This document shows, piece by piece, positions 33,192 to 58,893 of a stretch of DNA of 64,000 nt. The stretch is taken from positions 5,704,001-5,768,000 of the forward strand of contig NZ_CP059733.1 of the NCBI RefSeq assembly GCF_000948985.2, read 5' to 3'. The stretch comes from Thalassomonas viridans (GTDB lineage: Bacteria > Pseudomonadota > Gammaproteobacteria > Enterobacterales > Alteromonadaceae). The stretch's first letter is position 1. The number at the start of each line of letters is the position of its first letter. Both the position numbers and the translations under genes were made by a program. The notes below the pieces were generated by a model. It was not told where the DNA came from. It did no database searches and saw only the letters and a list, made by a program, of their open reading frames with translations.

Positions 33192-35675
33192 TTAGCGAAA
33201 ACTCAGCGTCAGCGGCTTACCGTCAAAGGTCAGGGCCAGTTTCAGCTGCCTGCTGTTTTGATCATAAGAGGTATTAAGGCGTTTGCCTGCCAAATAGACC
33301 TCTTTAAAGTGCGGCGCATTATGCACCACCAGGGTCAACTGCTTGTCTGCACTCAACGCCTTGCTGTCACCGGCCAGGGCAATAGTAAAGTTCAGTTGCT
33401 GATCCGCGGCTTTGGCGGTCAGATCAAGCTTGGTATAGTCTCCTTGCTGATAATCCCGGCTCAGGCCGTCATCCTGATAAAGCTGAAAACCCGACTCGCC
33501 GACACTGGCATCAAACCAGTAATGGACAATAAGCTCGTCACCGCTATATTCCCGGGTATTTTGCATATCCGGCGCATGGGGAATAATCGCCCCGCCTTTC
33601 ACCAGTACCGGAATAGTATCCAGGTCGACGGGAATAGTTTGCTTGCCGCCCTTTTGCCCCCCCGAGTAGGCTTTACCGGTAAAATAATCGAACCAGTTGC
33701 CGGCAGGCAGCTGATAGTCAAGGGCTGTTACCCCGGGCTCGGTAACCGGCAATACCAGCAGGTTAGGTCCCCAGTAATAACCTTGCGTATCCAGAAACAT
33801 CTTATCGGATATAGCCTTATCACCGGCTTCAAAAAACACCGGACGCATCAGCGGGGTGCCCTTACTGTGGTTTTCATAAACCAGGGTATAGTTATAGGGC
33901 AGAAGCTGATAGCGCCAGCTTAAGGCTGCTTTTACCCGCGCCGCCACCTCTTCGCCGTGAAACACCGGCTCAGGCAGCTGCTCGTCCTGGGCATGGGGGC
34001 GAAATACCGGCTGGAAAGCCCCGTATTGCAGCCAGCGCAGATAAAGCTCGCTATCAAAGCTTTCGGAAGCGACAAAGCCCCCCAAGTCCGAATGGGTATA
34101 GCCCAGCCCCAACAGCCCCATTTGCAGGGAAAGTTCAACCTGGGCTTTGAGTGCCGACCAGGTGCGGCTGACATCCCCGGTCCAGGGGATCATGCCGTAA
34201 CGCTGGCTGCCGGCAAATCCCGAACGCATCATGATAAAGGGACGCTGGTCTTTGCTTACCCGGTTAAAGTTGTTAAACAGCAGCTTGGCCCATTCGTGGC
34301 CGTAAACATTATGTATTTCATCGGCACTTGCCTTTTGCCCGGACTCCTGGATGAAATGATAGCTGTCCGCGGGATGTACCTCAGGCTCGCCGAGATCTCC
34401 CCAGAAACCGGCAATGCCCCAGTCCAGCTGCTTTTGATAAAACGGCCAGAACCAGTTTTGCCCGGCGGCGGAGAAAATATCCACCAAAGAGGTATGGCCG
34501 AAGTAGAAATCAAAAGTCCTGGCTTTGCCCTGCTCATCCAGCGAAAAGGCGCCGGCTTCGGCCCCCGATTGCCAGTTTTTAGACGTGGTCAACACGAAAG
34601 GCTCGCTGATCAAAATGGTCTTGATGCCCATATCGTCAAAGTCTTTCACCATTTGCTCGGCAGTGGGAAAGGTATTCCTGTCCCAGTCAAGGTTACCCAT
34701 ATGGCCCTTGATATCGGGGCCAAACCAGTAGAGATCAAAAATAATGGCGTCCAGCGGCATCTGCTGCTTCCGGTACTCTGCCACTACCTCCCTGGCCTGG
34801 ACTTCGCTGCGGTAACCGAAACGGGAAGCGATATTGCCCAGGGCCCAAATCGGCGGCATGGGCTGCCTGCCGCTGGCATAGGTATAATGTTCGGTCAGGC
34901 CAGAAAAACTGTCCGACATGGCCACCAGGTACGCACTGCGTCCGCCACCGGCAGCAAAATGCAATACGTCTTTTTCCGCCGCCCCTAAATCCAGGCTGCC
35001 CCTGGCGGTATTGTCAAACATCAGGATATATTTATCACTGGACATCAAACCCGGCAGGGAATAATTCATTTGCTCCGAGCGGCCTTCGTAGGCGTAATCC
35101 GCCTTGTTATACAACGGCAGGTTAAAACCCCGCCTGTCCATGCCCAGCACCCTTTCTCCGCCGGCAAAGAGCTTTTCCCTGGGGGAGAGTTTAAAGCGGA
35201 ATTCCTGGCTGTTTTCCCCGGCCAGATATCCCAGCTCTTCCTCAAGCTTTAACTGGCCCTGGTGGAAAAAAGACAGTTTAAACGGCGATTTCTGTACCAC
35301 TACCGCAGACGTTCCGCTGCTGAAGGTCAGCCCCTTATCAGTGGCTTTAACCGAAAGATTAAACTCCTGTTCCGCCCCCTTGCTACCGATCTGCCTTTTT
35401 TCATCAAGCCTCTTTTCGTCAAGTAGGTAGCCCGGCAGCTGTTTAACCCCCTTTGCCTGGTAATGCACATAAATGCTGTCCCGGCTGATATATTCCAGGG
35501 AGACTTTTCCCTGCGGCGAGCTTAGAATAAGGCTGTTGCCCTGTTGCTGATAACTTTGCCACCCCGAAGCGAATGCCTGGCCCGGTGTGGCATCGGCCGA
35601 GAGGGCAACAGGCATAAACAGTGCGCAGCACAGCATTAAACTCAGGGTTAATAAAGGTTTCATATTTAACAACAT
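33192..35675 (-). CDS. Secreted GH31 alpha-glucosidase or 4-alpha-glucosyltransferase
   Basis: An exported glycoside hydrolase family 31 enzyme of about 827 residues. The signal peptide is MKPLLTLSLMLCCALFMPVA, cut before DATPG. The GH31 barrel contains LDAIIFDLYWFG, the nucleophile region GFWGDLGEPEVHP (Asp about 427) and the acid/base region WTGDVSRTW (Asp about 501), followed by C-terminal beta domains. The WGDLGEPE form is close to transglucosylases of the Cellvibrio Agd31B type, so glucosyl transfer between maltooligosaccharides is as likely as hydrolysis. Starts at 35675 and 35663 are both possible. It is divergent from the GH13 gene over a region with the shared palindromic operator. 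A cytoplasmic paralogue is at 38837-41320. Confidence 0.9.
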   Translation of the reverse strand: MLLNMKPLLTLSLMLCCALFMPVALSADATPGQAFASGWQSYQQQGNSLILSSPQGKVSLEYISRDSIYVHYQAKGVKQLPGYLLDEKRLDEKRQIGSKGAEQEFNLSVKATDKGLTFSSGTSAVVVQKSPFKLSFFHQGQLKLEEELGYLAGENSQEFRFKLSPREKLFAGGERVLGMDRRGFNLPLYNKADYAYEGRSEQMNYSLPGLMSSDKYILMFDNTARGSLDLGAAEKDVLHFAAGGGRSAYLVAMSDSFSGLTEHYTYASGRQPMPPIWALGNIASRFGYRSEVQAREVVAEYRKQQMPLDAIIFDLYWFGPDIKGHMGNLDWDRNTFPTAEQMVKDFDDMGIKTILISEPFVLTTSKNWQSGAEAGAFSLDEQGKARTFDFYFGHTSLVDIFSAAGQNWFWPFYQKQLDWGIAGFWGDLGEPEVHPADSYHFIQESGQKASADEIHNVYGHEWAKLLFNNFNRVSKDQRPFIMMRSGFAGSQRYGMIPWTGDVSRTWSALKAQVELSLQMGLLGLGYTHSDLGGFVASESFDSELYLRWLQYGAFQPVFRPHAQDEQLPEPVFHGEEVAARVKAALSWRYQLLPYNYTLVYENHSKGTPLMRPVFFEAGDKAISDKMFLDTQGYYWGPNLLVLPVTEPGVTALDYQLPAGNWFDYFTGKAYSGGQKGGKQTIPVDLDTIPVLVKGGAIIPHAPDMQNTREYSGDELIVHYWFDASVGESGFQLYQDDGLSRDYQQGDYTKLDLTAKAADQQLNFTIALAGDSKALSADKQLTLVVHNAPHFKEVYLAGKRLNTSYDQNSRQLKLALTFDGKPLTLSFR

Positions 35676-35768
35676 AGATAATATTCCATATATTGCCGGG
35701 ACGGACTGACACCAGAAATTCACCGCAATATAACCCGCTAAAAAAGGTGACTGCCAGAGCTGAAAAAG

Positions 35769-35782
35769 TGAATACGTATGCA
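35769..35782. promoter_or_regulatory. Shared palindromic operator, copy 1
   Basis: TGAATACGTATGCA, centred on the palindrome ATACGTAT, in the divergent promoter region of the secreted GH31 and GH13 genes. Its reverse complement is identical over 14 bases to the copy at 56230. The form is that of a LacI-family operator; the regulator gene is not in the window. Confidence 0.75.
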
Positions 35783-35933
35783 GTTACTTGTCATGCCTGT
35801 CCTTAAGTTAATAGGATGATGGCAATCATAAAGCGAACTGACCTTGCTCCGCCAGCTGTCTTCTGGCGATTACCGGCAATAAATGCCGAAAACAAATAAG
35901 GTTAACACGCAGTTAAAATAGGAAGATTTAACC

Positions 35934-37694
35934 ATGAAATTTACCCGCACCCTGACCTTAACCCCGGTCGCTGCACTTATTTCTCTAGCCCTGTCCGGCT
36001 GTGTCTCCCAGCACCAGCAGGCAGCAGCACCAACAACGGCCGGCAAGGCAGCCAATGACCAGGTGGTTGAGTTTTATGGCACCAAAACCCCTTTTGCCTC
36101 ACAGTCCGTATATTTCCTGCTCACCGACAGATTTGTCGACGGCGACAGCAGCAACAACCAGGAAACCCAGGGGGGCGAATACCCCACCTTTAACCGTCCC
36201 CTCAAGGGGCCTGACGGACAGGAAGCCAATGTCGGCTATATGGGGGGCGATTTCCAGGGGGTACTGAATAATGCCGATTACATCCGGGACATGGGCTTTA
36301 CTTCGGTATGGCTGACCCCGATTTTCGATAACCCGGACCAGGCCTACAGCGGCGGCGAAGAAGTCGTCTACGGCTCCTATTATAAGGACGGCGGCAAAAC
36401 CGGCTATCACGGTTACTGGCCAAATAACTTCTACCATGTCGACGAACACCTGCCGTCAAAAGACCTGACCTTCGCCGACTTTACCCGCAAGTTAAAGCAG
36501 GATCACGACCTGAACTTTATTCTGGACGTAGTAACCAACCACGGCTCCCCCGCCTACGGCATGCCGGAGCAGCAGGAAAAATTCGGCGTGATTTATGACG
36601 AAAACTGGCAGGTGGTTGCCGACCACCAGAACATACACCCGGAAAAGCTGGATCCCAACAATCCCATGCATGCCTTTTTCAACACCCATACCGGGCTGGC
36701 CCAGCTCTCGGATGTCAATGAAAACAGCGAAGCGGCACTTGATTACTTCGAAGGCGCCTACCTGAAATGGATAGCCCAGGGGGTCCATGCCCTGCGCGTA
36801 GATACCATCAAGGAAATGCCCCACCATTTCTGGAAAAAGTTTTTCGACCGTATCCGTAAAAAATACCCGGATATCTTTATCTTTGGCGAAAGCTACTCCT
36901 ACGAAGCCGAATTTATCGCCGAGCATACCCGTGAAGAAAACGGCGGCGTCAGCGTACTGGACTTCCCCGGCCGCAAAGCCATCAGCGAGCTTTTCCAGGA
37001 GCCGGGCAGCGACTTCAAGGATCTTATCTGGTATCTGCACCTGGACGACGGTGTTTACCAGAACCCGTATGACCTGATGACCTTTTACGACAACCACGAT
37101 ATGGAACGCATGAACGCCAGCGACATGGGCTTTGTCGATGCCAATAACTGGCTGTTCACCTCTCGCGGCATCCCGGTGATCTACTACGGCTCCGAAGTCA
37201 ACTTTATGACCGGCAAGCCGGAACACCAGGGCAACCGCAACTATCTCGGTCAGGAGAAGATAGAAGAGGCTAAAACCCATATTATCCACAATGAGCTGAC
37301 CCGTATCGCCCAGTTAAGGAAAAACACGGTCGCCCTGCAACGGGGATTACAACATAACCTTGACTTTAGCGGCCAGACGGCCAGCTTCTACCGGGTCTAC
37401 CAGGATCAGGAGCGCAGCCAGACCGCGCTGGTATTGCTGAACAAGGGAGACAGTCCCGCCAGCTTTACCGTGACGGAAAAACTCAGCCAGGGCACCTGGA
37501 CAGATGCCTTTAGCGGCGAGCAATATGTCGTAAATGCCGGGCAAACCGAGATCAAAACCCAGGTCAAGGCACACGGCGTTAAAGTGTTATTAAATAACGG
37601 CCGGGTTGAAAACCCCGAGCTGATCACCGCCCTGATGGCCCAGCAGCAGAAGCTTAATCCTGAGCAGATGCTGGCGTCACAAGCGGCGAACTAA
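35934..37694 (+). CDS. GH13 lipoprotein, CGTase-like alpha-glucanotransferase or amylase
   Basis: A 586-residue family 13 enzyme anchored as a lipoprotein: the signal peptide ends in the lipobox LSGC with Cys 23. The barrel carries LDVVTNH, LRVDTIKEMP (nucleophile Asp 290), FGESYS (acid/base Glu 319) and FYDNHDMERM (Asp 389). This is the arrangement of cyclodextrin glucanotransferases and acarviosyl transferases rather than plain amylases. A beta-sandwich follows the barrel, and the C-terminal 60 residues are Gln-rich. It is divergent from the secreted GH31 gene, shares the operator at 35769 and ends in a strong terminator. In the acarbose cluster, GH13 enzymes of this kind act outside the cell on the pseudo-oligosaccharide and starch; a comparable role here is inferred. 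Confidence 0.88.
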   Translation: MKFTRTLTLTPVAALISLALSGCVSQHQQAAAPTTAGKAANDQVVEFYGTKTPFASQSVYFLLTDRFVDGDSSNNQETQGGEYPTFNRPLKGPDGQEANVGYMGGDFQGVLNNADYIRDMGFTSVWLTPIFDNPDQAYSGGEEVVYGSYYKDGGKTGYHGYWPNNFYHVDEHLPSKDLTFADFTRKLKQDHDLNFILDVVTNHGSPAYGMPEQQEKFGVIYDENWQVVADHQNIHPEKLDPNNPMHAFFNTHTGLAQLSDVNENSEAALDYFEGAYLKWIAQGVHALRVDTIKEMPHHFWKKFFDRIRKKYPDIFIFGESYSYEAEFIAEHTREENGGVSVLDFPGRKAISELFQEPGSDFKDLIWYLHLDDGVYQNPYDLMTFYDNHDMERMNASDMGFVDANNWLFTSRGIPVIYYGSEVNFMTGKPEHQGNRNYLGQEKIEEAKTHIIHNELTRIAQLRKNTVALQRGLQHNLDFSGQTASFYRVYQDQERSQTALVLLNKGDSPASFTVTEKLSQGTWTDAFSGEQYVVNAGQTEIKTQVKAHGVKVLLNNGRVENPELITALMAQQQKLNPEQMLASQAAN

Positions 37695-37713
37695 AACCGG
37701 CAAACACGCCAAC

Positions 37714-37758
37714 GAAAAAGCCGCCGGGTCAATTTTCCTGACCAGGCGGCTTTTTTTA
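37714..37758. terminator. Bidirectional terminator between GH13 and the PfkB kinase
   Basis: AAAAAGCCGCC-GGTCA, loop, TGACC-A-GGCGGCTTTTTTT. A long GC stem is flanked by A runs on the left and T runs on the right, so it can stop both convergent transcripts. Confidence 0.9.
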
Positions 37759-37770
37759 TTATGTTGTGAT

Positions 37771-38652
37771 TTATGCCGGGACTTTCAAAGTATCTTGGGT
37801 TAATTGCTCATGGTAGAGCTTATCGGAATTAATGCACATGGCCGCCACCCGGGAGCCGTTTTCCATCGCCAGCTGCACATCCTCCCCCTGCAGGTAGGTC
37901 GTTAAAAAACCGCTGAAATAGGCATCGCCAGCGCCATTGCTGTCCACCAGTTCATAGCCGGGAATGATATCCTGCCGGTACCAGTTGCCCCCGGCATCAA
38001 GCGCGGTGGAGCCGCCTTTACCATGGGTGCATACCACCAGCTGCTTGCCCAGGGCAATCTGCTGGCGCATAAAGTTTTCGTAATCGGGCAGGTTATCGCT
38101 GGCGACAAAGATCACGTCCGCGGCATCGATAAATTCCTGGTGATAGGGATTCTCACCGTCATAATCGTGAAGATCTATCCATAGGGGCTTGCGGTATTTC
38201 TTCGCCAGGGCCAGGGTCGGCCGGGTATAGTCGAGGATACCGACGGCGGCGATATCGGTTTTAGCCATCACCCGCTCGATTTCCGTCATATCATAATTTT
38301 TATCATCCGACGGCGGCTGGGTATAAATAGAAATCCGCTCTCCGTGCGGCGACATAATATTGGTATGCTGCTCCGTCGGCACAGGCACGGTTTCCACCAA
38401 AAGTTCAATGTTCTTATGCTGCAATCCGGCGATAATCTCCCGCCCCGGCTCATCATCCCCCAAACAGGTATGCAAACACACCTGATGGCCAAGACGGGAA
38501 AGGTTGAGGGCTTTACCCGCCCCGGTGCCGCCGACGGCGAAATACTGGGATTTTGCCCATACCGTTTGCGGCTCAGCCGTCAGCGGCTGGTGTAAATGAA
38601 TAATGCTGTCGATTGAGGTTCCGCCGATAATAAATACATGCGCTTGCGTCAT
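37771..38652 (-). CDS. PfkB/ribokinase-family carbohydrate kinase
   Basis: A 293-residue sugar kinase of the PfkB family. Visible are the N-terminal GGTSIDSIIHL, the substrate-loop glycines FAVGGTGAGKALNLSRLG, and the C-terminal catalytic signature VDSNGAGDAYFSGFL with the base Asp. The ATG at 38652 follows AAGGAG; the longer frame would add 42 residues without a start signal. It has its own promoter region with an operator copy (38724) and sits next to the cyclitol operon. In acarbose producers, AcbK, an acarbose 7-kinase giving self-protection, is a PfkB enzyme; the same job is a plausible inference here. The alternative is an ordinary sugar kinase for starch breakdown. Confidence 0.85.
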   Translation of the reverse strand: MTQAHVFIIGGTSIDSIIHLHQPLTAEPQTVWAKSQYFAVGGTGAGKALNLSRLGHQVCLHTCLGDDEPGREIIAGLQHKNIELLVETVPVPTEQHTNIMSPHGERISIYTQPPSDDKNYDMTEIERVMAKTDIAAVGILDYTRPTLALAKKYRKPLWIDLHDYDGENPYHQEFIDAADVIFVASDNLPDYENFMRQQIALGKQLVVCTHGKGGSTALDAGGNWYRQDIIPGYELVDSNGAGDAYFSGFLTTYLQGEDVQLAMENGSRVAAMCINSDKLYHEQLTQDTLKVPA

Positions 38653-38723
38653 AACCTTAGCTCCTTTTGAGTTAAAAACCTTTCCCGTTAAATTACTTGA
38701 TAAGGTTAAAAAAACAATCGTCC

Positions 38724-38737
38724 TACATACGTATTCA
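38724..38737. promoter_or_regulatory. Shared palindromic operator, copy 2
   Basis: TACATACGTATTCA, 72 bases upstream of the PfkB kinase ATG. It differs from the TGCATACGTATTCA of the other copies at one position only. Confidence 0.75.
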
Positions 38738-38762
38738 AACAAGGAAAAACAAAAGCAAAAAC

Positions 38763-38799
38763 AAAGCCCTGAAAGCAAAAAACTTGCTCGCAGGGCTTT
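38763..38799 (-). terminator. Terminator of the cyclitol operon
   Basis: On the minus strand AAAGCCCTG pairs with CAGGGCTTT, with an inner AGCAA/TTGCT stem, followed by GTTTTTG. It lies 40 bases after the cytoplasmic GH31 stop. Confidence 0.85.
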
Positions 38800-38836
38800 A
38801 CCTTTTTCGCCTTTACCGGCAACAGGAAAACGGGAT

Positions 38837-41320
38837 CTACAGCTGGCGTTCCAGAGTCAGTACCAAAGGAGAGCCGTCAAAAACAAACTCTACCGACAGC
38901 TGCCCGGATGCTTCCTGATAATGGCAATTCAAGATCTTTTCTCCCAGGCATACCCGGCGGATGTCTCCGGCGTTATGTATAACCAGGGTCAGGGCTTTGT
39001 CCTGCGTTAACGGAGCCCCCGCCGATAACTCGACACTGAACAGGATCCGGTTTTCGCTGATGCCGGCATTAAAGTCCAGCAGCCGGTATTGCCCCTGCTG
39101 GTAACCCAGGCTTAAACCGTCATCCTGATACAGCTGGAATCCGGACTGGTTGACGGCGGCATCAAACCAGTAATGGATAAACAGCTCATCCCCGCTGTAT
39201 TCCCGGGTATTTTGCATATCGGGGGCATGGGGAATAATGGCTCCCCCTCTCACCAGTACCGGGATCTGCTGCTCGTTAACCGGAATTGTCTGGCTGCCGC
39301 CGGTATAGAGAGTATCGCTGAAATAATCGAACCAGTTCCCCTCCGGCAGGCAATAATCCAGCCCGGACACGCCCGGAGCAGTCACCGGCATCACCAGCAA
39401 GCTTGGCCCCCAGAAATAAGCCTTGGTATCCAGTAAATAATCGTCCGAAAGGCAACTGTCCGCAAACTTGACCTCATCCACTGCTGCAAAGAACACCGGC
39501 CGCATAAACGGCATACCCCGGCTATGATTTTCATAGGCCAAAGTATAGTTATAGGGCAGCAGACGGTAGCGCCAGCTTAAAGCGGCTTTTACCTTTTCCG
39601 CCACCTGCTCGCCATGGAAAACCGGCTCGGGCACAACGCTGTCGTGGGCGTGGGGCCGGTAAACAGGTTGGAAAGCGCCGTATTGCAGCCAGCGCACATA
39701 AAGCTCGACATCAAAATGGTCGGTTTCGATAAAACCGCCGAGATCCGAATGGGTATAGGCCAGCCCCAACAGCCCCATTTGCAGCGACAATTCCACCTGG
39801 GCCTTTAACGAGCCCCAGGTACGGCCGACATCACCGGTCCAGGGCAACATGCCGTAACGCTGGCTGCCGGCAAATCCCGAACGCATCATGATAAAGGGCC
39901 GCCGATCCTTGTTATTCTGACTAAGCCCCTGATAAAGCAACCTGGCCCATTGATGGCCGTAAACATTATGCACCTCATCGGCAACGGCAATCTGGTTAGC
40001 AGCGCTGATCATATGGCAGGCATGCCCGGGATGGGCTTCCGGCTCACCAAGATCCCCCCAGAAACCGGCAATGCCCCAATCCAGCTGCTTTTGGTAAAAA
40101 GGCCAGAACCAGTTTTGCCCGGCTTCGGAGAACACATCCACCAGGGAGCCGTTACCGAAAAAGAAATCAAAGGTTACCGGTTCGCCATCCTTATCCCGGG
40201 CAAAGGCATGGGCTGCCGCCCCCGGCTGCCAGTTATCGCAGCTGGTTAACACATAGGGCTCGCTGATCAGTATGGTATTTATCCCCAATTCGGCAAAATC
40301 CGCCACCATTTGCTCGCCGGTGGCGAAAGTATCCCTGTCCCAGTCCAGGTTGCCCATATGCCCCTGTACATCGGCGCCGAACCAGAACAAATCGAAAATA
40401 ATCGCATCCAGGGGCATCTGCTGACGCCTGTATTCCGCCACCACTTCCCGGCCCTGGGCTTCGCTGCGGTAGCCGAAACGCGAGGCGATATTGCCAAAGG
40501 CCCAGACAGGCGGCAGGGGCTGGCGGCCGGTCGCCAGGGTATAACGTTCGCACAGGGCGGGATAATTATCCGCCAGGCTCACCAGGTAGGCGCTGCGCCC
40601 CCCGCAGGCATGAAATTGCAGCACATCCTGCTCGCTGGCCGCCAAATCCAGCTCTCCCCGGGCGCTATTGTCAAACATCAGGATATATTTGCCGCTGGAC
40701 ATCAAACCGGGCAGGCCGAAGTTCATCTGCTCTACCCTGTCTTCATAGCCAAAATGGGTCTGGTTATAAAGCGCCAGTTTATGGCCCCGCCGGTCCATGC
40801 CTAACACCCTTTGCCCGCCGGCAAAAAGTTTTTCTTCGGGTTTTAGTTTAAAGCGAAAACCGGGAGATTTTTCCGCGGATGCCGCCGGGGACGGTATAAG
40901 CGGATTGCTTGCCCCGAAAACACTTTCGAAATATCCGGCTTCCTCCTCCAGCAGGGTTTTCCCCCGGTAGACAAACACCAGTCTGACCGGCTGTTTTTGA
41001 ATGATCACTGAGCTGTTATCACAGCTAAATACCAGCTCTGCGTTCCGGTCGCTAACCCGGGGGGCCAGGGAAGTCAGTTCACAATCCAGCAAGTCCTGCT
41101 CCGCCAACAGGTAACCCGGCAATTGCTTTTGCCCGTTAAGGCGGTAATGCACGTAAATATTGTCGCGGCCGACAAATTCAAGCGAAATCTCTCCCCGGTC
41201 CGTAAGCAGCACAAGCTGCCTGCCCGACAGCCTGAATGCCTGCATAACAGCACCGCCCCCAGGACTTATATTCCGGCAAGAGCCCCCCGTTTCAATCAAG
41301 TTATCCGTATTCTTATTCAC
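38837..41320 (-). CDS. Cytoplasmic GH31 alpha-glucosidase or glucosyltransferase, last gene of the cyclitol operon
   Basis: A paralogue of the secreted GH31 enzyme at 33192-35675, without a signal peptide, so cytoplasmic. The barrel keeps LDAIIFDLFWFG, the nucleophile region GFWGDLGEPEAHP and the acid/base region WTGDVGRTW. I chose the GTG at 41320 because AGGAG lies at a normal distance; the ORF can be extended to an ATG at 41353, and MQAFRLSG further in is another candidate. It is the last gene of the 13-gene operon, 130 bases after the cyclase gene, and is followed by a terminator. A cytoplasmic copy in this operon could trim or extend the alpha-glucan part of the product or recycle imported chains; both are inference. 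Confidence 0.88.
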   Translation of the reverse strand: MNKNTDNLIETGGSCRNISPGGGAVMQAFRLSGRQLVLLTDRGEISLEFVGRDNIYVHYRLNGQKQLPGYLLAEQDLLDCELTSLAPRVSDRNAELVFSCDNSSVIIQKQPVRLVFVYRGKTLLEEEAGYFESVFGASNPLIPSPAASAEKSPGFRFKLKPEEKLFAGGQRVLGMDRRGHKLALYNQTHFGYEDRVEQMNFGLPGLMSSGKYILMFDNSARGELDLAASEQDVLQFHACGGRSAYLVSLADNYPALCERYTLATGRQPLPPVWAFGNIASRFGYRSEAQGREVVAEYRRQQMPLDAIIFDLFWFGADVQGHMGNLDWDRDTFATGEQMVADFAELGINTILISEPYVLTSCDNWQPGAAAHAFARDKDGEPVTFDFFFGNGSLVDVFSEAGQNWFWPFYQKQLDWGIAGFWGDLGEPEAHPGHACHMISAANQIAVADEVHNVYGHQWARLLYQGLSQNNKDRRPFIMMRSGFAGSQRYGMLPWTGDVGRTWGSLKAQVELSLQMGLLGLAYTHSDLGGFIETDHFDVELYVRWLQYGAFQPVYRPHAHDSVVPEPVFHGEQVAEKVKAALSWRYRLLPYNYTLAYENHSRGMPFMRPVFFAAVDEVKFADSCLSDDYLLDTKAYFWGPSLLVMPVTAPGVSGLDYCLPEGNWFDYFSDTLYTGGSQTIPVNEQQIPVLVRGGAIIPHAPDMQNTREYSGDELFIHYWFDAAVNQSGFQLYQDDGLSLGYQQGQYRLLDFNAGISENRILFSVELSAGAPLTQDKALTLVIHNAGDIRRVCLGEKILNCHYQEASGQLSVEFVFDGSPLVLTLERQL

Positions 41321-41450
41321 TAGTACTTCTCCTGGCAGACACAGGCAGGACATAGCGCTACCTGTATCTTTACCGCTAATTTTCCATTATCCAGTGCGGG
41401 CAGGAACCGGCAGCAGCAGGCCGGCTCACGCCTTAATCTTCAGGCAGGCA

Positions 41451-42692: not shown

Positions 42693-42752
42693 TATCTTTC
42701 CTTACTGCTATCTGCTTTGTCTGAACTGCTTTTACATAATGTTGGCTAACGG

Positions 42753-43454: not shown

Positions 43455-43457
43455 GGG

Positions 43458-51620: not shown

Positions 51621-51975
51621 ATTTGTTTTCACCGCTGAATTGGAAAACGATCAGGGAAATCACGTCGTCCGAGTCGTTAAATAAGGCATGCTCGCTAAAA
51701 GCCGGATTTTTCATCACATCCCCGGTCTTTACCCGGATCTCTTCGCCGCAAAAGATCATTTTCCCCTGCCCGTAGGTGATCACATACCATTCGCAATTAT
51801 CGCCGTGTCGGTGCAAGCCGATGGTAGCGCCGGGAGGCACGTTGACAAAATCAAGGAAATCCATGCGTTTGCCGTCCTGATCGGCGCTAAACGCCCTGAA
51901 AACCTCCACATGATCCAGGCCGTCGTGGCAGTTATATTCAACTTGCATCAAGTCGCTGAGGGAATGTTTTTGCAT
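51613..51975 (-). CDS. Small cupin-fold protein
   Basis: A 120-residue single-domain cupin. The metal-binding motifs are visible: GLHRHGDNCEWYVITYGQGKM (His-x-His and Glu) and PAFSEHALFN (His). It begins MQKHSLSDLMQVEY at the ATG 51975, 7 bases after the HlyD-like gene, and overlaps the aminotransferase start. Longer upstream starts run back into the HlyD-like gene and carry no cupin features. In this operon no VOC-type epimerase (AcbO/ValD) is present, so the cupin is a candidate for the cyclitol epimerase or isomerase; it could equally be a regulator or oxygenase. Confidence in the fold is good, in the role low. Confidence 0.8.
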   Translation of the reverse strand: MQKHSLSDLMQVEYNCHDGLDHVEVFRAFSADQDGKRMDFLDFVNVPPGATIGLHRHGDNCEWYVITYGQGKMIFCGEEIRVKTGDVMKNPAFSEHALFNDSDDVISLIVFQFSGENKYE

Positions 51976-51982
51976 CTGGGCA

Positions 51983-52438
51983 TTACTCCTTGATAAAACT
52001 CTTCTTAAACATCTCGAACACAGACGTGTTCCGGATAATAATATGCAGCTCGACCTCCTGGCTAAGCACGACACGGCAATCGCTGCACTCAACATAAGCC
52101 GCCAGGGAAGACTCCCCATTTGTTTGCTGCGCTTTGATATCGGCAATCACACCGGTGACAGCCTGCTGTTGGTTGTCGATAACCACCACGGCATTACCCG
52201 ATTCGATTTGCTCCGCCCGGGATGGCGGGATCGCCATCCGGATTGTTTTTTGTTCCTGCTCAGCCCTGATCACCTGGCCTTTGGCGGCATATACATCCTG
52301 GAAATCCAGCCTGGCGATATAAATCAGGGCACACACCAGCACGGCGGTAAAAAAAAGCAGCCAGAAAAAAATGTCGCCATAACTTTGCCGGCGGTAATCC
52401 CCCGCATATAAGGCCAGGATCCGTGGAAAAACTTTCAT
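51983..52438 (-). CDS. Short HlyD-like membrane protein associated with the ABC exporter
   Basis: A 151-residue protein with one membrane segment (WLLFFTAVLVCALIYIA, about 25-42) and a periplasmic beta-rich part (DVYAAKGQVIRAEQEQKTIRMAIP, then VTGVIADIKAQQ). This looks like the barrel and lipoyl-type part of a HlyD/EmrA membrane fusion protein, but the coiled-coil hairpin that would reach an outer-membrane channel is missing. The ATG at 52438 overlaps the ABC gene stop by 4 bases. The last residues FEMFKKSFIKE form an amphipathic tail. It probably assembles with the two ABC half-transporters; how it works without the hairpin is unclear. Confidence 0.7.
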   Translation of the reverse strand: MKVFPRILALYAGDYRRQSYGDIFFWLLFFTAVLVCALIYIARLDFQDVYAAKGQVIRAEQEQKTIRMAIPPSRAEQIESGNAVVVIDNQQQAVTGVIADIKAQQTNGESSLAAYVECSDCRVVLSQEVELHIIIRNTSVFEMFKKSFIKE

Positions 52439-54081
52439 GGGGCACACACTCCGTTAACCTCTTCAAGCCGCCCGTTTGCCAGTACCAGCAAGTGATCGGC
52501 ATAAGACCTGGCGGCTTTGCGATGGGAAATAATGATGGTGATATGATCTTCTTTCTGCCGCGTCAGCGTCTGTAACACCCGCAGCTCGGTTGCCTGATCC
52601 AGGCTGGCGCTCGGCTCATCCAGCAAACGTATCCTGCCGCCCAGGTACAGGGTGCGCGCCAGGTTCAGCCGCTGCAACTGACCGCCGGACAGGCCTTCGC
52701 TGCTGTTTTCCAGCAATGGCTCCTGCTCAGTTTGCAGCTCCAGAAAATCGCAAGCGGCATCATCAAGCGCCTGCTGCATCCTTTGCAGGTCTGGCTCAGG
52801 GGCAAACAGGCTGATATTTTCCCGCAGGCTGCCTTCAAGAAAGTGGCTCTTCTGGGGCATCCAGGACAATAGTTTCCGTTTGCTTTGCGGTGAGATTTTG
52901 GCAAGATCAATCCCGTCCCAGAGCACCTGGCCACAGCCGCATGGCAAAAGCCCGGCAATCAGCTGCAGCAAAGTGGTTTTCCCCTGGCCGCTCTCCCCTT
53001 CGATCAGGTATATCTTGCCCGTCTCAAAGCGGTAGTTCAGTCCCTGAAAAAGCGCATTCTGTCCCTTGCTATAGCTAAGGTCTGCCAGCTCCAACGTCTG
53101 CACCGATGCCAGCTCAGTTGCGCCCGCTTGCTCCACCCCGGGAGCCTCCGTCACCTCGGCGATGTTATTCATTTGCGTATTCGCTTCGCTTAACGCCCGG
53201 GTTACCTTGCTTAGACGGTACACCGGCTGATAGGCCAAGCCGATCAGTAATAAACACAGCAACAGTTCGCCGATACTGTTGCCACCTTTGATCACGGTAT
53301 AAATTCCGACGGAAACAAAAGCAAAGAACTGCAGGGAACGCATCAGGTTTTGCACCAGCTCCTGGCTGTTTGCTACTTGTTCTCGGCCATACAGGGCGCC
53401 ATAACCCTGCTGCAGGCTGGTATCCAGGGCTTTTGCCACCACCTGTTCGATATTGAAGATGTTGATCAAACGTTTGGCATTAAAGCTGGCCGACAATAAC
53501 TCTGCGAGTTCGCCCTTATCCCGGTTGTACTTGTCTGAAAAAACCTTAGACATAGGATAATGGAAGGCAAAGTTAAACCAGTGCAGTAGCAAAAACACCA
53601 GGGCGATCAGGGCAAAAACCGGCTCAACCTTAAACAGGACGACAAACACCAGCAAAGACACCACCAAGGCATAACCGCAGAAATAGATGAACTCGGAAAG
53701 GAAATACTGAAAGTTGCTTAACCAGATCAGCAAACGGTTGCTGAGATTACCTGCACCGGCTTCCCTTAATGCTTCGGAGGAAAAATTGTCTATGCCCCGT
53801 TCAAGAAAGGCCAGGCTCAGCTTACGTTCGATGCCGGAGCGCAAAAATAAAAACAGGTAATCCTGAGCGGCGTTTAATACCAGACGCAGCAGGATCAGGA
53901 TAAAGACCCCGGCAATCAAAAGATTAAAATGGGTTTTCGCTCCCGAAGGTAAGACCTCGTCCAGGATCAGGGTAAAGGTTACCGGCAATAAAAAAGAAAA
54001 CAGGGATACGAAAAAGATAAAAGCGAATAAAAGCGCCAGTTCCGCTTTTCGCTGTTTAAAGATCCCGCCAAGCAATTTCAT
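52435..54081 (-). CDS. ABC exporter half-transporter, second subunit
   Basis: A 548-residue protein with an N-terminal six-span exporter membrane domain (about 10-305) and a nucleotide-binding domain (about 335-545): Walker A GESGQGKTT, signature LSGGQLQRLNL, Walker B RLLDEPSASLD and switch His in IISHRK. The ATG shares a base with the preceding ABC gene stop (TAATG), and its stop overlaps the HlyD-like gene by 4 bases. It is expected to pair with the 54081-55904 subunit as a heterodimer that exports the operon product. There is no peptidase domain, so a bacteriocin-type processing exporter is unlikely. Acarbose clusters also carry paired ABC genes (AcbWXY). Confidence 0.88.
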   Translation of the reverse strand: MKLLGGIFKQRKAELALLFAFIFFVSLFSFLLPVTFTLILDEVLPSGAKTHFNLLIAGVFILILLRLVLNAAQDYLFLFLRSGIERKLSLAFLERGIDNFSSEALREAGAGNLSNRLLIWLSNFQYFLSEFIYFCGYALVVSLLVFVVLFKVEPVFALIALVFLLLHWFNFAFHYPMSKVFSDKYNRDKGELAELLSASFNAKRLINIFNIEQVVAKALDTSLQQGYGALYGREQVANSQELVQNLMRSLQFFAFVSVGIYTVIKGGNSIGELLLCLLLIGLAYQPVYRLSKVTRALSEANTQMNNIAEVTEAPGVEQAGATELASVQTLELADLSYSKGQNALFQGLNYRFETGKIYLIEGESGQGKTTLLQLIAGLLPCGCGQVLWDGIDLAKISPQSKRKLLSWMPQKSHFLEGSLRENISLFAPEPDLQRMQQALDDAACDFLELQTEQEPLLENSSEGLSGGQLQRLNLARTLYLGGRIRLLDEPSASLDQATELRVLQTLTRQKEDHITIIISHRKAARSYADHLLVLANGRLEEVNGVCAP

Positions 54082-55904
54082 TACAGCCCCTCCCCTGCCG
54101 GAGAAGCTGTACCTAGTTCAATAGCAGGAGCAAGTGCCGACATTTGCACCCCCTGCTCATACACATGCAGGATATAATCAAAGGCCGTTTTTATTTCCTT
54201 GTTATGGCTGATCACCACAACTATGACATTATCCAGGTAAGCCAGTAACTCCACCACTTGCTGCTCCATACCGGCATCGAGGGAGGCTGTGGGTTCGTCA
54301 AAAATATAAAGATCGGCATCGCGCACATAACAACGGATAAAACATAAACGTTGCAACTCGCCTCCGGAAAGTTCAGTCACCGGCTTATGCAAACAATCGG
54401 TAAAGTTAAGCAGGCGGCAAGCCAGCTGAAAGCGCTCTTGATTCACTTCCCGGCCAAACAAGTTGATATTATCGAGTACCCTGCCCTGTTTCAGCGCCAG
54501 GTTAGACTGGTCATGGAGCGACAAACGCTGCCACAATGCCCCCTTATCCTCAGGCAATAAGGGCTTGCCATTGACCATTAACCGGCCTGAGTCAGGTGTC
54601 AGCACGGCAGAAAGCAAATCGATCAGGGTAGACTTTCCGCTGCCGCTGGCTCCGGTGATCAAATAGGAATTGCCCGGAGAAAAGTCGAGATCTAAACCGG
54701 AAAACACAGGCTTTGATGCCCCTGAGCTTCCTGCCTGCAAGTAACTGAACCCAACCTGCTCAAGCCGAAGCGAAGTGATTTTTTCTGCCGGAGCGGATAC
54801 TTTCCCCGAAGATAAAAGCGGGCTTTTTTCCGGTGTAAGCTGCTCCAACTTACGGTAGCAAACCGCCAGGGATTGCGAGTAGTTATAGATTTTATAAATA
54901 CTGTCCAGCCGCGGAACCACCATGGAAGAAAGCACATAAACTACTACGAGATCCCCCAGTGCAATCACACCGCGGAAGAACAGCTCGCCCCCCAGCCATA
55001 AAATCGAGATATGGCTGAGCAGGTTCAGGGTAACTTTGACATTAAAGGAAAAATTCCAGATAAGCCATTTCCCCGCCTGGGTAGTGGCCAATGCCAGCAG
55101 CAACTGCTTGAATTTATTGACGATGCCGGTTAAATCCCGGGTTTTCAACAAGGTCTGCGCCGCCAGGGCCGAACTGAGAAAGCCGTTAACATCCGCCAGC
55201 CGTCCCGGCTCCTGCTCTATATAGGGATCAGCGCCTTTGGCGATATAAATGGGCAGCAGGCAGGTCAGCAGCATAAAAAAGACCACCAGCAGCAAAAACA
55301 ACACATGGTACGAGAGTAAAATGCCGACGGTAAACACCATCACAAACAGGGATCTCAGGCTGTTTTGCAGCACGAAAAGCTGGTGCTTTTGCAGGGTTTC
55401 CAGGGTATCTGTCAGTACGCTGGTAAGTTCGCTTTTTTTCAGACCGGAAAAAACCGCTGCCGGCGTATACATCAGCCGTTGCCAGTTACGTAATACCAGC
55501 TGGTGGCAAATCCGGCTGTTAGCCCGGGCGGCAATTTTATTGCCGTAAAACTCTGTCAGGCCCCCGAACAGGATCAAAATGAACACCAGGAAGGTAACAT
55601 GTAAAAACAGGCTCAGATCCTGGCTGTATATCACCTTGTTAACGGCAAATTCCAGATAGGCGGACAGGATAAAAGGCCCGCTCAGCAGCGCAGACAAGGC
55701 GCTTAAAACCATCAGCCAGGACAGGCCGGGCTCCCGGGTCAATTCCTTAAAAACAAAGAAGACTCCCCAGGAATGATAAAAACGCGGCTTGATATGGTTT
55801 TCCTGGACATGGTCACATGACAGCTCGGGGACACCGGCTGCTGCCGGCGCTGAGCCAGACACGGATGAAGACTTGTTGCGGGCAGAAAAAAGCATCTCAG
55901 GCAT
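54081..55904 (-). CDS. ABC exporter half-transporter, first gene of the cyclitol operon
   Basis: A 607-residue ABC half-transporter. The first 45 residues are polar and Ser/Ala-rich; membrane segments occupy about 60-330 and the nucleotide-binding domain about 370-575: Walker A GASGSGKST, signature ELSGGELQRL, Walker B YIFDEPTASLD and HNKEIKTA around the switch His. The start is not certain: at 55904 the ATG sits in the loop of a 7-bp hairpin with AGGGAG directly adjacent, while an ATG at 55895 has normal spacing. It heads the operon, with the operator at 56230 about 330 bases upstream. Confidence 0.87.
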   Translation of the reverse strand: MPEMLFSARNKSSSVSGSAPAAAGVPELSCDHVQENHIKPRFYHSWGVFFVFKELTREPGLSWLMVLSALSALLSGPFILSAYLEFAVNKVIYSQDLSLFLHVTFLVFILILFGGLTEFYGNKIAARANSRICHQLVLRNWQRLMYTPAAVFSGLKKSELTSVLTDTLETLQKHQLFVLQNSLRSLFVMVFTVGILLSYHVLFLLLVVFFMLLTCLLPIYIAKGADPYIEQEPGRLADVNGFLSSALAAQTLLKTRDLTGIVNKFKQLLLALATTQAGKWLIWNFSFNVKVTLNLLSHISILWLGGELFFRGVIALGDLVVVYVLSSMVVPRLDSIYKIYNYSQSLAVCYRKLEQLTPEKSPLLSSGKVSAPAEKITSLRLEQVGFSYLQAGSSGASKPVFSGLDLDFSPGNSYLITGASGSGKSTLIDLLSAVLTPDSGRLMVNGKPLLPEDKGALWQRLSLHDQSNLALKQGRVLDNINLFGREVNQERFQLACRLLNFTDCLHKPVTELSGGELQRLCFIRCYVRDADLYIFDEPTASLDAGMEQQVVELLAYLDNVIVVVISHNKEIKTAFDYILHVYEQGVQMSALAPAIELGTASPAGEGL

Positions 55905-56460
55905 CTCCCTGAGACTTGCGCATTACAACAAGCTTTAAAAAATCCGGGATAAGATTGGCGGCATCCGCTTCCACAAAGAACACAGGAATTAATATCCCCT
56001 GTCCGTAGCCTTAGCCAGGCTACTTCTGCTGCGGCAAAGAAAGGAAAGGTGCGCGGGGGGCAAGCTCTTCTGCTGAGTTATCCCCGCCTTTGGGCAGGAA
56101 CTAGCATAAAGATTTTCTTCAACAAAAACTGTTTGCGAATCAGCTACTACCATTGTTTCAGCACCTTAACGTCCTGTGAATTTATCGCTTTTTTTAAACT
56201 ACTGGATAGCTCAAAAAAAGCAAAGATACTGCATACGTATTCATGCCATATGAATAAGAAAAAGCGATTAGTCTGTTTAATTCCCGCGGCGGCTAACGTC
56301 GGGAATAACGGTTAAGTTTTGGCAGCAGATACAGGAAGGAATAAAGCGAACAAAACACAGGCAGTCAATAAATCATAATATCAATAAATTAGCATAAAGC
56401 TATTGCTTGTTACGGCTCTCGTTTAAATAGTTTTTTAACCTTAGAAGTAAAAAAGAAAAT
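55905..56460. other. Divergent promoter region of the cyclitol operon and the outer-membrane protein gene
   Basis: About 556 bases with no convincing gene. It holds the shared operator copy at 56230-56243 and, at its left edge, the hairpin TCTCAGG-CATCTC-CCTGAGA (55895-55914) around the start of the first ABC gene. An 88-residue frame at 56049-56315 has no homology and runs through the operator, so I do not call it. Confidence 0.55.
56230..56243. promoter_or_regulatory. Shared palindromic operator, copy 3
   Basis: TGCATACGTATTCA, identical (reverse orientation) to the copy at 35769-35782. It stands between the divergent ABC-headed cyclitol operon and the DUF5916 gene, about 220 bases from the latter start. 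Confidence 0.78.
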
Positions 56461-58803
56461 ATGGAATACAGAAAAATAACCCGAACGATCACAGCAGGAA
56501 AAGTGAATATTTTTCGCATAAAAATGCTCTTTTTTATATTTGTCGGCTTAGTGCTGACCAAAAACACCGCCATTGCCGGCACTCCGGAGGGAACAAAGGA
56601 TAAATCCCCGCACATTCCTTACCTGCAAGCAAACATAGTATTAGACGGCAAGTTAGACGAAGCCATCTGGCAACAGGCCCGCAGCTATCGGCTGTCATAC
56701 TCTACCGAACCCTTTGAAAATATCCCCGCTCCGGTCGGCACTCAGGTTTATGTTTTCGAATCCGGCGATACCCTGTATGTCGGCTTCGATGCCCGGGATC
56801 TCGAGCCGGAAAAGATCCGCGCCTACCTGCGGGACAGGGACAAGGTTTGGGATGATGATTTGGTGGGACTAAAATTAGACACCTACGGCACACAAAAGCT
56901 CGCCTATCACTTTTATGTCAATGCCAACGGCGTGCAGATAGACACCATAGAAAGCGAATTAAGCGACAACCTGCGCGACGACTGGGATGCCAACTGGCAA
57001 ACCGCCACTGCCGTAAGCGAACAAGGCTATACCGCAGAGTTTGCCATTCCCTTAAAAAGCATGAACTTCAGCGAGAAAGACGGGGAAAAAAACTGGCGGG
57101 TTGAGTTTTTACGCTGGTACCCGAGGGAAGTGAAATACCGTTTATCCCATATTCCGGTCGACCGCAACGACAGCTGCTCCCTGTGCCGCCTGGCCCCGAT
57201 ACAGGGCTTTGCCCATACGCCCCAAAGCGACACCCTGACCATTTTACCCTCTATGGTCTCCAGCTATAACGAGAAAAAGCCGTCGCTGGAAGATCAAAGC
57301 TGGCACAGCAACCAGGACTGGGACTTGGGCGCCGACATCAGCTGGCAGATCACTTCCGACGACCTATTGTCCGCCACCATAAACCCGGACTTTTCCCAGA
57401 TAGAGGCCGACAATGCCCAACTGAGCCTGAACAATAACTTTTCCCTGTCTTTCCCGGAAAAAAGGCGCTTTTTCCTCGAAAATCAAAGCTATTTCGACAG
57501 CATGTATTCCCTGGTGCATACCCGCAATATTATCGAGCCCGATGTCGGGGTAAAATATACCAGCCGCAAGGATCAGCACACCCTGGCGGTGCTGGTAGCC
57601 AATGATCAAGCCACCCATTTGCGCATTCCCGGCAACCTGAATTCCACCACCACAAAAATCGACGAAGAGAGCATCAACGGCGCCTTCAGGTACAGATATG
57701 ACTTTGATGAAAATGCCTCGGTAGGCATGTTAAGCACAATGCGCCAGGCCAGCAATTACCATAACTACCTGATGTCTATCGACAGCAAATACAGGTTCAG
57801 CGAAAGCACCACCCTGCGCTGGCACCTGCTCAACTCCCGTAGCGAATACCCGGAGGAATTAACCAGGCAGCTTTGCAACGGCTGCTCAACCGAGTCGAGC
57901 TTACGCACCCGGGCCGATGAAGAGTTAAACGACTCAGCCTGGCAAATAGAGCTGGATCACAGCTCGCGCAACTGGTGGTTTAATGCCCAGCATAAACGAA
58001 ACGGCAAAGATTTCCGGGCAGATCTCGGCTCGGTAGACAAGGCCGACTATAAGTTCTATCAGCTAAAATCCGGCTATGTGTTATACGACTACTCGATATG
58101 GAACAAACTTGAATTCTGGGCGGGGTATTCGAAAGAAACCAATATCAACAACGACCTTTTGGGCGACAACGCCGAAATACAGCTTAACCTCAACGGCCCG
58201 ATGCAATCAAAAATCAGCACCGGGGTAGGAACACAGAAACAATCCGGCCTCAGGTACGATAAAAGCACCACGCAAATAGCCGGCAATACCCCAATGTTCG
58301 ACCTGAACTTTGCCTTTATCTACGCCGATTTCCGCCCGGATCCGTCGATATTCCTCAGCACTTTGCTCAGAAAAGGCGACACCGTAGACTATGCCAATAA
58401 CCGCCGGGCCAAACAGTTTTACTGGCAGCCCATAGTGCAATGGGATGTAAACCGGCATTTTAATTTTAAAGTAACCTACACCTTTGAAGATCTGGATTCC
58501 GCCGGCGACAACTTATATATAGCCCGGCTGACGGATCTGCGCGCCAATTACCAGTTTTCCGCCGCCAGCAAGTTGCGTTTTTCCGCTATCCATAACAACC
58601 TCAGCTTTAATGCCGGCAATTATCTCGATCCCAGGGATCAGAATTTTCAAAGCCTGGGCACCCAGCTGGTGTACTCCTACCGGTTCAACGCCCTGTCAAC
58701 CTTTTACCTGGGCTATTCAAGCAATGCCGTCGAAACCGATCATCTTGGCAAGCTGGTGCAGCAGGAGCGAAACCTGTTCACTAAGCTGACCCTGTCGTTC
58801 TGA
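56461..58803 (+). CDS. DUF5916/CBM9-like outer-membrane beta-barrel protein
   Basis: A 780-residue exported protein. A hydrophobic signal (MLFFIFVGLVLTKNTAIAG) follows a 21-residue basic extension, so the true start may be 56461 or a later codon near 56503-56524. Residues about 45-240 form a family 9 carbohydrate-binding-like domain (LDGKLDEAIWQQA, VYVFESGDTLYVGFDARD). The rest matches DUF5916, with many aromatic-rich strands ending in LTLSF, typical of an outer-membrane barrel. Sugar binding at the surface plus barrel suggests carbohydrate or pseudo-oligosaccharide passage. The operator at 56230 links it to the GH13/GH31 and cyclitol genes. Specific function unknown. Confidence 0.82.
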   Translation: MEYRKITRTITAGKVNIFRIKMLFFIFVGLVLTKNTAIAGTPEGTKDKSPHIPYLQANIVLDGKLDEAIWQQARSYRLSYSTEPFENIPAPVGTQVYVFESGDTLYVGFDARDLEPEKIRAYLRDRDKVWDDDLVGLKLDTYGTQKLAYHFYVNANGVQIDTIESELSDNLRDDWDANWQTATAVSEQGYTAEFAIPLKSMNFSEKDGEKNWRVEFLRWYPREVKYRLSHIPVDRNDSCSLCRLAPIQGFAHTPQSDTLTILPSMVSSYNEKKPSLEDQSWHSNQDWDLGADISWQITSDDLLSATINPDFSQIEADNAQLSLNNNFSLSFPEKRRFFLENQSYFDSMYSLVHTRNIIEPDVGVKYTSRKDQHTLAVLVANDQATHLRIPGNLNSTTTKIDEESINGAFRYRYDFDENASVGMLSTMRQASNYHNYLMSIDSKYRFSESTTLRWHLLNSRSEYPEELTRQLCNGCSTESSLRTRADEELNDSAWQIELDHSSRNWWFNAQHKRNGKDFRADLGSVDKADYKFYQLKSGYVLYDYSIWNKLEFWAGYSKETNINNDLLGDNAEIQLNLNGPMQSKISTGVGTQKQSGLRYDKSTTQIAGNTPMFDLNFAFIYADFRPDPSIFLSTLLRKGDTVDYANNRRAKQFYWQPIVQWDVNRHFNFKVTYTFEDLDSAGDNLYIARLTDLRANYQFSAASKLRFSAIHNNLSFNAGNYLDPRDQNFQSLGTQLVYSYRFNALSTFYLGYSSNAVETDHLGKLVQQERNLFTKLTLSF

Positions 58804-58886: not shown

Positions 58887-58893
58887 TGACGCA

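Follow-up and report, generated by a model that had tools for sequence, protein, structure and literature searches.

Could a marine Gram-negative bacterium make a compound of the acarbose kind? To our knowledge, acarbose-type inhibitors are known from actinobacteria. The question is raised by an operon of the gammaproteobacterium Thalassomonas viridans, whose genome has 7.95 Mb in two contigs; the window, meaning the whole stretch of 64,000 nucleotides analysed, covers positions 5704001-5768000. The operon and one adjoining gene form a unit that is probably a cluster for the biosynthesis, export and self-protection of a C7-cyclitol pseudo-oligosaccharide of the acarbose kind, judging from sequence comparisons. 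It probably works like the acarbose cluster (acb) yet is not one, as AcbI, AcbJ, AcbL, AcbN, AcbO and AcbQ were not found among its proteins.

Gene content and organization of the operon

The operon lies on the minus strand and spans 55904 down to 37771. Its genes, in order of transcription, are the following (percentages are amino acid identities; domains are from Pfam).

54081..55904, minus strand: ABC half-transporter 1, first gene of the operon (ABC_membrane and ABC_tran)
52435..54081, minus strand: ABC half-transporter 2 (same type of domains), with a 1-base overlap with half-transporter 1
51983..52447, minus strand: small HlyD-like membrane protein, possible exporter adaptor (HlyD_3, E 0.037, under the cut-off)
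51613..51975, minus strand: cupin, candidate epimerase/isomerase acting on a cyclitol 7-phosphate (Cupin_2)
50337..51632, minus strand: AcbV-type class III aminotransferase, AT3 (class III aminotransferase domain; 52%, 453 bits to AcbV)
48790..50340, minus strand: AcbU-like APH-fold kinase, putative cyclitol 1-kinase (APH; 27%, 104 bits to AcbU; same gene order)
46829..48838, minus strand: glycogen-synthase-like transferase, putative AcbS-type pseudoglycosyltransferase (starch-synthase-type glycosyltransferase domain; 47%, 479 bits to AcbS; 38%, 364 bits to AcbI)
45759..46832, minus strand: GlgC-like, AcbR-like nucleotidyltransferase, putatively forming an NDP-cyclitol (NTP_transferase; 45%, 291 bits to AcbR)
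44725..45762, minus strand: ROK kinase, putative cyclitol 7-kinase (ROK)
43458..44747, minus strand: GH4-type NAD-dependent enzyme, candidate for dehydration or redox chemistry (GH4)
42753..43454, minus strand: PhyH Fe/2-oxoglutarate oxygenase, putative tailoring enzyme (PhyH; WHQD at residue 117)
41451..42692, minus strand: sedoheptulose 7-phosphate cyclase, 2-epi-5-epi-valiolone synthase (EEVS)-like (DHQ synthase-type; PDB match, active-site pair and tree)
38837..41353, minus strand: GH31b, oligosaccharide 4-alpha-glucosyltransferase-like (GH31; 62% identical to GH31a, described below)
37771..38778, minus strand: PfkB kinase like AcbK/Mak1, putatively for self-protection (PfkB; PDB matches; the start may be 38652)

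The initial annotation had described a tight minus-strand operon, and each enzyme it named was found as an open reading frame (ORF) with the expected domain; the small membrane protein was omitted from its list. It was right about the kind of overlaps, which it gave as 1 to 20 bases, but the successive spacings range from -49 to 97 bases (negative values being overlaps): -1, -13, one affected by an over-long cupin ORF, -20, -4, -49, -4, -4, -23, 3, 60, 97 and 58. The -49 value shrinks to -4 if a later start is taken, and the likeliest start of the cupin, 51975, gives a protein of 120 amino acids. The PfkB gene, placed among the flanking genes, is present but is the last gene of the operon, before a terminator-like inverted repeat.

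37715..37755, no strand: terminator-like inverted repeat between GH13 and PfkB, with 17-nt arms, 94% complementary

The same genes occur in the same order in T. haliotis (65-89% identity, the HlyD-like protein having 68%). In Paraneptunicella aestuarii the identities are 29-78%, with PfkB at the head of the cluster and GH13 at its far end; GH31b was not in the stretch read. As the order recurs in the first species and largely in the second, the arrangement is not due to chance.

The cyclase

The best solved-structure match of the cyclase is ValA (4p53, 233 bits), ahead of AroB (3okf, 173 bits) and 5tpr (164 bits), which carries the PDB label 3-dehydroquinate synthase but is the Anabaena DDGS. 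The zinc ligands proposed at the outset, Glu202, His266 and His282, indeed do not vary among 22 aligned sequences. At the positions of Asp263 and His343, ValA and AcbC likewise have Asp/His, whereas 5tpr has Ala/Thr and 3okf has Asn/Val; this pair, Asp281/His360 in ValA, is the one that we take to separate EEVS from DDGS. Both the metal ligands and the EEVS-type pair are present. The pair covers 2 of the 14 fingerprint sites that have been described, and two of the 14 distinguish EEVS from DDGS (eLife 2015). In two Streptomyces cyclases (L032 and L113), Arg replaces the His of the pair seen in ValA, AcbC and the marine cyclases.

A phylogenetic tree of 98 rows (quick method, SH-aLRT support, no EVS-type enzyme among the rows) was rooted with 3okf and the AroB-type gene of the source genome. 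The marine cyclases, together with a Stigmatella protein (P0031) and two metagenome proteins (P0026 and P0033), form a 13-row clade (support 95), sister to 37 actinobacterial cyclases (support 96), and ValA, AcbC and 5tpr share a separate clade. The cyclase thus falls in with those found in acarbose-like loci of actinobacteria and apart from AroB and DDGS; a position with the latter was the grouping that the initial annotation had set against its own proposal. Although NCBIfam aroB is its top family, the score of 216 bits is under the 305-bit cut-off, the genome has a separate AroB-type gene, and both the active-site pair and the tree contradict AroB as well as DDGS. An AroB or DDGS (mycosporine/gadusol) function of the cyclase, in a neighbourhood of sugar metabolism, is hence extremely improbable. 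We regard it as EEVS-like, with 2-epi-5-epi-valiolone as the predicted product.

Assembly genes in common with the acarbose cluster

The proteins of acb, read in a genome (G1261) taken to be Actinoplanes sp. SE50/110, were compared with 20 proteins of the window. Besides the homologues of AcbV, AcbU, AcbS and AcbR listed above, matches were obtained for AcbK (28%, 88 bits), AcbM (26%, 56 bits) and AcbC (35%, 196 bits). The order V-U-S-R is common to both operons, the published order being acbVUSRPIJQKMLNOC (PMC7682106). This specific homology to AcbV, U, S, R and K, together with the common order, bears out the acarbose kinship that had been suggested; the kinship to validamycin suggested with it is unsupported beyond the cyclase family.

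AT3 and AcbV share a clade of 13 rows (support 100), and the nine paralogues of AT3 found in the same genome have identities of 35% or less. AcbV has been placed in the dTDP-sugar branch of acarbose biosynthesis, with AcbA and AcbB (PMC7682106). The initial annotation reported both of these as absent, which holds for the cluster (AcbB has no match among the 20 window proteins) but not for the functions, since an RmlB homologue (497 bits) is found elsewhere in the genome with RmlA beside it (51% to AcbA), so that a substrate of the AcbV type could be available. These RmlB and RmlA homologues, at G000:C1:6481341-6482330 (L091), are followed by a DegT-type aminotransferase, possibly a dTDP-aminosugar locus.

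Of 20 columns separating AcbS from AcbI, 12 carry the AcbS residue in the transferase, 1 carries that of AcbI and 7 carry neither, in keeping with its description as a putative AcbS-type pseudoglycosyltransferase. In the tree, the marine sequences, that of the window included, make up a third clade, separate from those of AcbI (31 rows) and AcbS (37 rows); the tree has no glycogen synthase outgroup and one very long branch (L108), and the marine clade may be the sister of AcbS. AcbR is reported to produce GDP-valienol and AcbS to catalyse C-N bond formation, and single AcbS/AcbI homologues have been noted beside acbC and acbR (PMC9200736). No second AcbS/AcbI-like gene was found in the genome at E <= 1e-3, the gene itself serving as positive control; as the transferase has no other match at this threshold, the genome possibly has no GlgA either.

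The solitary transferase suggests an alternative product, a validoxylamine- or salbostatin-like pseudodisaccharide without maltose, in which AT3 would aminate the cyclitol and the AcbS-type enzyme would join the NDP-cyclitol to an aminocyclitol or a simple aminosugar. Such a product would differ from the pseudo-oligosaccharide in the acceptor alone. The position of the RmlA/RmlB genes outside the cluster fits it, as does Streptomyces griseofuscus, where an AcbV-like gene likewise goes with only one AcbS-like gene genome-wide. We nevertheless consider it unlikely, because AT3 belongs to the clade of AcbV, an enzyme placed in the dTDP-sugar branch, because RmlA/RmlB homologues do exist elsewhere in the genome, and because neither a VOC nor a GT20 domain was found by Pfam among the cluster proteins. 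The features of the validamycin cluster (val/vld) include the VOC epimerase ValD and the GT20-type VldE.

Early steps

The cluster departs from acb in, among others, the steps between cyclase and nucleotidyltransferase. The ROK kinase is nearer to its counterparts in acarbose-like loci of Streptomyces (mostly 35-39%) than to AcbM. The intervening epimerase had been thought missing, AcbO being regarded as a VOC epimerase. AcbO is a xylose isomerase-like TIM barrel (AP_endonuc_2, 70 bits), AcbL is of the ADH_N type and AcbN of the short-chain dehydrogenase type, and none of the three matches the 20 window proteins, as had been reported for AcbL and AcbN. The absence of AcbO therefore stands; its function may be carried by the cupin. 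Homology of the cupin to AcbO was considered and rejected given the TIM barrel fold of AcbO and its lack of a match, and functional replacement alone is proposed.

The HxH..E..H pattern is retained by most of 14 aligned cupins, the PDB matches are generic, and a homologue search returning 5 proteins from 6 candidates (one being the window's own) gave no named relatives. The genomic context was compared in 82 loci, comprising the window, T. haliotis, Paraneptunicella, acb and 78 from elsewhere, with 10-kb flanks that can hide genes. Cyclase, window-type ROK kinase and cupin occur together without an AcbL or AcbO match in 57 of them, including the window and its two relatives. Four have an AcbM-type kinase and AcbL without a cupin (acb alone of these also having AcbO), 18 have neither cupin, AcbL, AcbO nor a kinase gene passing the scoring rule, two on short contigs (L009 and L069) have a cupin without ROK, and one (L073) has ROK without a cupin. 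Since the cupin module was not seen beside AcbL or AcbO in any of these loci, another enzyme may have taken over the epimerase step, and the cupin is a candidate for this role. A metagenome protein (P0112) carries a cyclase (42% over 344 residues) fused to a cupin (40% over 75), which could be an artefact of prediction or assembly. A published list of core Streptomyces genes includes gacO (PMC13240717).

The nearest structure to the GH4-type enzyme is the 6-phospho-beta-glucosidase 1up7, with which the motifs GGSS, NFTNP, GIC and GLNH align; the NAD motif is present, as are the Cys and His of the conserved motifs, which we take to be the metal ligands. Such kinship would fit a 7-phosphorylated pseudo-sugar as substrate. 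A GH4-type gene is present at 13 of the 82 loci, and at 12 of these a cupin accompanies it; on the tree, testing the cupin against ROK or GH4 gave only 2-3 independent pairs, too few for significance to be reachable. The cupin would epimerise, and the GH4-type protein would dehydrate or reduce. In the PhyH oxygenase, WHQD is presumably the HxD motif of its iron-binding relatives.

Cyclase, ROK, cupin and GH4 also recur together in Burkholderia of leaf nodules and at a few further loci, and such Burkholderia genes have been tied to C7 cyclitols (PMC8599487). The product might then be a small cyclitol or aminocyclitol in free form, like kirkamide or streptol, which nucleotidyltransferase and transferase merely decorate. 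This is very improbable, as the Burkholderia stretches (8.5-21 kb) have no AcbV-, AcbU-, AcbR-, AcbS- or AcbK-like genes, all of which are present in the window.

Predicted export and self-protection

Two fused ABC half-transporters, with the small HlyD-like protein, open the operon. The pair had been likened to AcbWXY, a comparison that fails, as this arrangement is unlike the AcbWXY set; one ABC ATPase gene in the acb stretch does align with the window transporters, but over their ATPase part only (30%, 51 bits). Pfam (E <= 0.001) and NCBIfam (E <= 0.01) give no match for the small protein, which is kept in position in T. haliotis and in Paraneptunicella (29%).

Among 177,635 distinct PDB sequences, the best matches of the PfkB kinase are Mak1 (6wb4, 93.1 bits) and an acarbose 7(IV)-phosphotransferase (6wb7, 81.5 bits), the next scoring 48.5. 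This search was made without the acb cluster and lends separate support to the kinship with acarbose. The kinase resembles the acarbose kinases and may serve self-protection.

The same biosynthesis could serve another role, the exported molecule being a carbohydrate carrier, a compatible solute or a cyclitol-built surface glycan instead of an inhibitor. A carrier role has been proposed for acarbose as well, and the cluster is accompanied by export genes, 4-alpha-glucosyltransferase-like enzymes and a CBM9/DUF5916 protein. We find this distinctly unlikely: the most plausible reason for an AcbK/Mak1-like kinase is an alpha-glucosidase inhibitor that has to be inactivated, and no polysaccharide polymerase or flippase domain was found by Pfam among the cluster proteins scanned.

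The inserted unit and its neighbours

The boundary of the unit was observed by comparison with two genomes of the same genus (G061 and G095), in which the site is empty: the order is metE-LysR-GH31a-GH13-YjbQ-like, with around 160 bases separating GH13 from the YjbQ-like gene and no cyclase match at E <= 1e-60 in either genome. The following features are involved.

33192..35723, minus strand: GH31a, oligosaccharide 4-alpha-glucosyltransferase-like, resident neighbour (GH31; PDB match; present at the empty sites)
35934..37694, plus strand: GH13, CGTase-like, resident neighbour (GH13; lipoprotein-type leader, by eye)
37695..58893, no strand: inserted unit (island), bounded by GH13 and the YjbQ-like gene
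56461..58803, plus strand: CBM9 and DUF5916 protein (Pfam), transcribed away from the operon

In the window, the YjbQ-like gene (58894-59310, named by eye) comes directly after the CBM9 gene, and T. haliotis has the unit at the same site with the same junction. As G061 and G095 have the site without the unit, 37695-58893 is a 21-kb insertion here or was lost in those two genomes. Short blastn searches revealed no target-site repeats at the island ends. The CBM9/DUF5916 gene, which had not been named with the cluster, belongs to the inserted unit: it adjoins the operon in all three species (T. viridans, T. haliotis and Paraneptunicella) and has no match in 20-kb stretches at the two empty sites. 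Conversely, GH31a and GH13, which had been named as genes flanking the operon, are found in G061 and G095 without it, which rules them out as part of the unit and makes them resident neighbours, older at the site.

GH31a best matches the oligosaccharide 4-alpha-D-glucosyltransferase 4b9y (767 bits, the next different enzyme having 334). Both GH31a and GH31b contain the motifs GDLGEPE and WTGDV, presumably catalytic; no signal peptide was seen by eye in GH31b. The proteins nearest to GH13 are cyclodextrin glucanotransferases (148 bits), and Paraneptunicella likewise has a GH13 gene (67%) next to the cluster.

At E <= 1e-60, the cyclase occurs in three of 395 sampled genomes of the family, two of 394 of the order and two of 369 of the class, the source genome being counted each time. 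The other member in the class sample is 37% identical; the other in the order sample (L089, in G641) is 40% identical and of a different type. Its locus has genes like AcbM (310 bits) and AcbL (172 bits), lacks a cupin match within the 4-kb stretch, and represents a second, different type of cyclitol cluster within the order. Among 72,556 plasmid records, relatives occur only in Streptomyces (17 records for the cyclase at E <= 1e-60 and two for the transferase at E <= 1e-30).

Elsewhere in the window, a ketoacyl synthase-type gene (10366-12261, 46.9 bits) adjoins overlapping ORFs at 7.9-12.3 kb, and the G+C content falls to 0.385 at the right edge (62001-64000), against 0.46-0.56 in the remaining 2-kb steps.

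Proposed pathway and role

What the sequences show is which genes are present, how they are ordered, to which families they belong and where the island ends; each reaction given here, like the product, is predicted. The cyclase would convert sedoheptulose 7-phosphate to 2-epi-5-epi-valiolone, and the ROK kinase would form its 7-phosphate. Epimerisation by the cupin and NAD-assisted dehydration or reduction by the GH4-type enzyme could stand in for AcbO, AcbL and AcbN of Actinoplanes. The AcbU-like kinase and the AcbR-like nucleotidyltransferase would then lead to an NDP-cyclitol, the AcbV-type aminotransferase would supply the amine acceptor, and the single AcbS-type enzyme would form the C-N bond, with PhyH possibly adding a hydroxyl group. 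The product may be exported by the two half-transporters and the HlyD-like protein, and the PfkB kinase may phosphorylate returning product, so that the cell's own alpha-glucan enzymes are protected. The most likely role would be to block the amylases and glucosidases of competitors while the producer uses its own GH13 and GH31 enzymes.

Several observations weigh against this scheme. The cyclase does not group with the characterised ValA or AcbC, and the matches to AcbU and AcbM are weak. The cluster encodes no homologue of AcbI, AcbJ, AcbL, AcbN, AcbO or AcbQ, AcbI matching the AcbS-like gene only, and no AcbJ homologue was found in the genome by a search made without a positive control. The lack of AcbI and AcbJ leaves the scheme without an explanation for the sugar acceptor and for 7-dephosphorylation; the acceptor must be something other than an amino-trisaccharide, unless the single transferase acts differently. 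In the transferase tree the AcbI clade has the longer branch, so the AcbS-type residues may be ancestral and not specific to C-N bond formation. Finally, the mutual exclusion of cupin and AcbL represents 2-3 independent changes on the tree, for which no significance is possible, and AcbO homologues were found only in acb.

A fuller version of the proposal is put forward tentatively, as one that may well not hold in all its parts: a convergent NDP-cyclitol route using a cupin epimerase and a GH4-fold NAD enzyme recruited as a cyclitol dehydratase/reductase, together with a solo AcbS-type enzyme, would yield an undescribed pseudo-oligosaccharide of the acarviosine class, exported by marine Gram-negatives as a weapon when they compete for the alpha-glucans of algae and bacteria, with self-protection by a relative of the acarbose kinases. 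We know of no GH4-fold enzyme that performs carbocycle chemistry. If the proposal is true, competition by alpha-glucan inhibitors extends to the sea, through a conserved island in marine gammaproteobacteria, and the product could be a new drug-like scaffold, a sugar-mimicking inhibitor of starch enzymes related to the diabetes drug acarbose. It also provides concrete candidates for the enzymes replacing AcbO, AcbL and AcbN. The role of the island is directly testable, because some genomes of the genus carry it at this site and others lack it there.

Comparison with known systems

No published account of an acarbose-like cluster in gammaproteobacteria was found in literature searches. AcbS homologues are reported outside acb-type clusters (PMC9200736, section 13). 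Words starting with proteobacteria or marine are absent from the main text of that paper, a word search that gammaproteobacteria would escape, and marine AcbS-like sequences may already have been included in its tree. Three Thalassomonas genomes have been mined (PMC9860883); the main text of that study has no words starting with cyclitol, valiolone, acarbose or saccharide.

With acb, the window cluster has in common the AcbC-, V-, U-, S-, R- and K-like genes, the V-U-S-R order and adjoining alpha-glucan enzymes. It differs in lacking AcbI, J, L, N, O and Q, in having a cyclase and a ROK kinase from other subgroups, and in the presence of the cupin, GH4 and PhyH genes, the fused ABC half-transporters and the marine Gram-negative host. 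The kirkamide/streptol-type loci of leaf-nodule Burkholderia have in common the cyclase, ROK, GH4 (25-27%) and, in three of four, the cupin, whereas NDP-cyclitol and transferase genes are not found in the stretches compared.

A strong AcbV-like match occurs in eight of 80 loci, the S. griseofuscus locus (L113/L114) among them. These eight actinobacterial loci have no nearby AcbQ match and are possible producers of an unnamed pseudo-oligosaccharide; the genomes of two of them (L019 and L028) have a second gene, of the AcbI clade. A further set of 29 of the 80 loci, from Streptomyces and Nocardiopsis, has AcbI- and AcbQ-like matches and was classed as acarbose/acarviostatin/trestatin-like by gene content, three of the loci being contigs of one genome. 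These 29 have a cyclase of the sister clade, the same ROK type, AcbR- and AcbS-like genes, a cupin (29/29) and frequently PfkB (22/29); they differ in their AcbI, AcbJ and AcbQ matches and in having no GH4 or PhyH match within the stretches examined.

S. griseofuscus differs in an AcbJ-like match and in having no GH4 or PhyH match. Otherwise it has in common with the window the cyclase, cupin, AcbV, AcbU, AcbS, AcbR, ROK and PfkB genes, one AcbS/AcbI-like gene in the genome and no AcbQ match. As for the kinases, PfkB has only 28% identity to AcbK of acb, but the acarbose kinases Mak1 and AcbK are its top two matches of solved structure.

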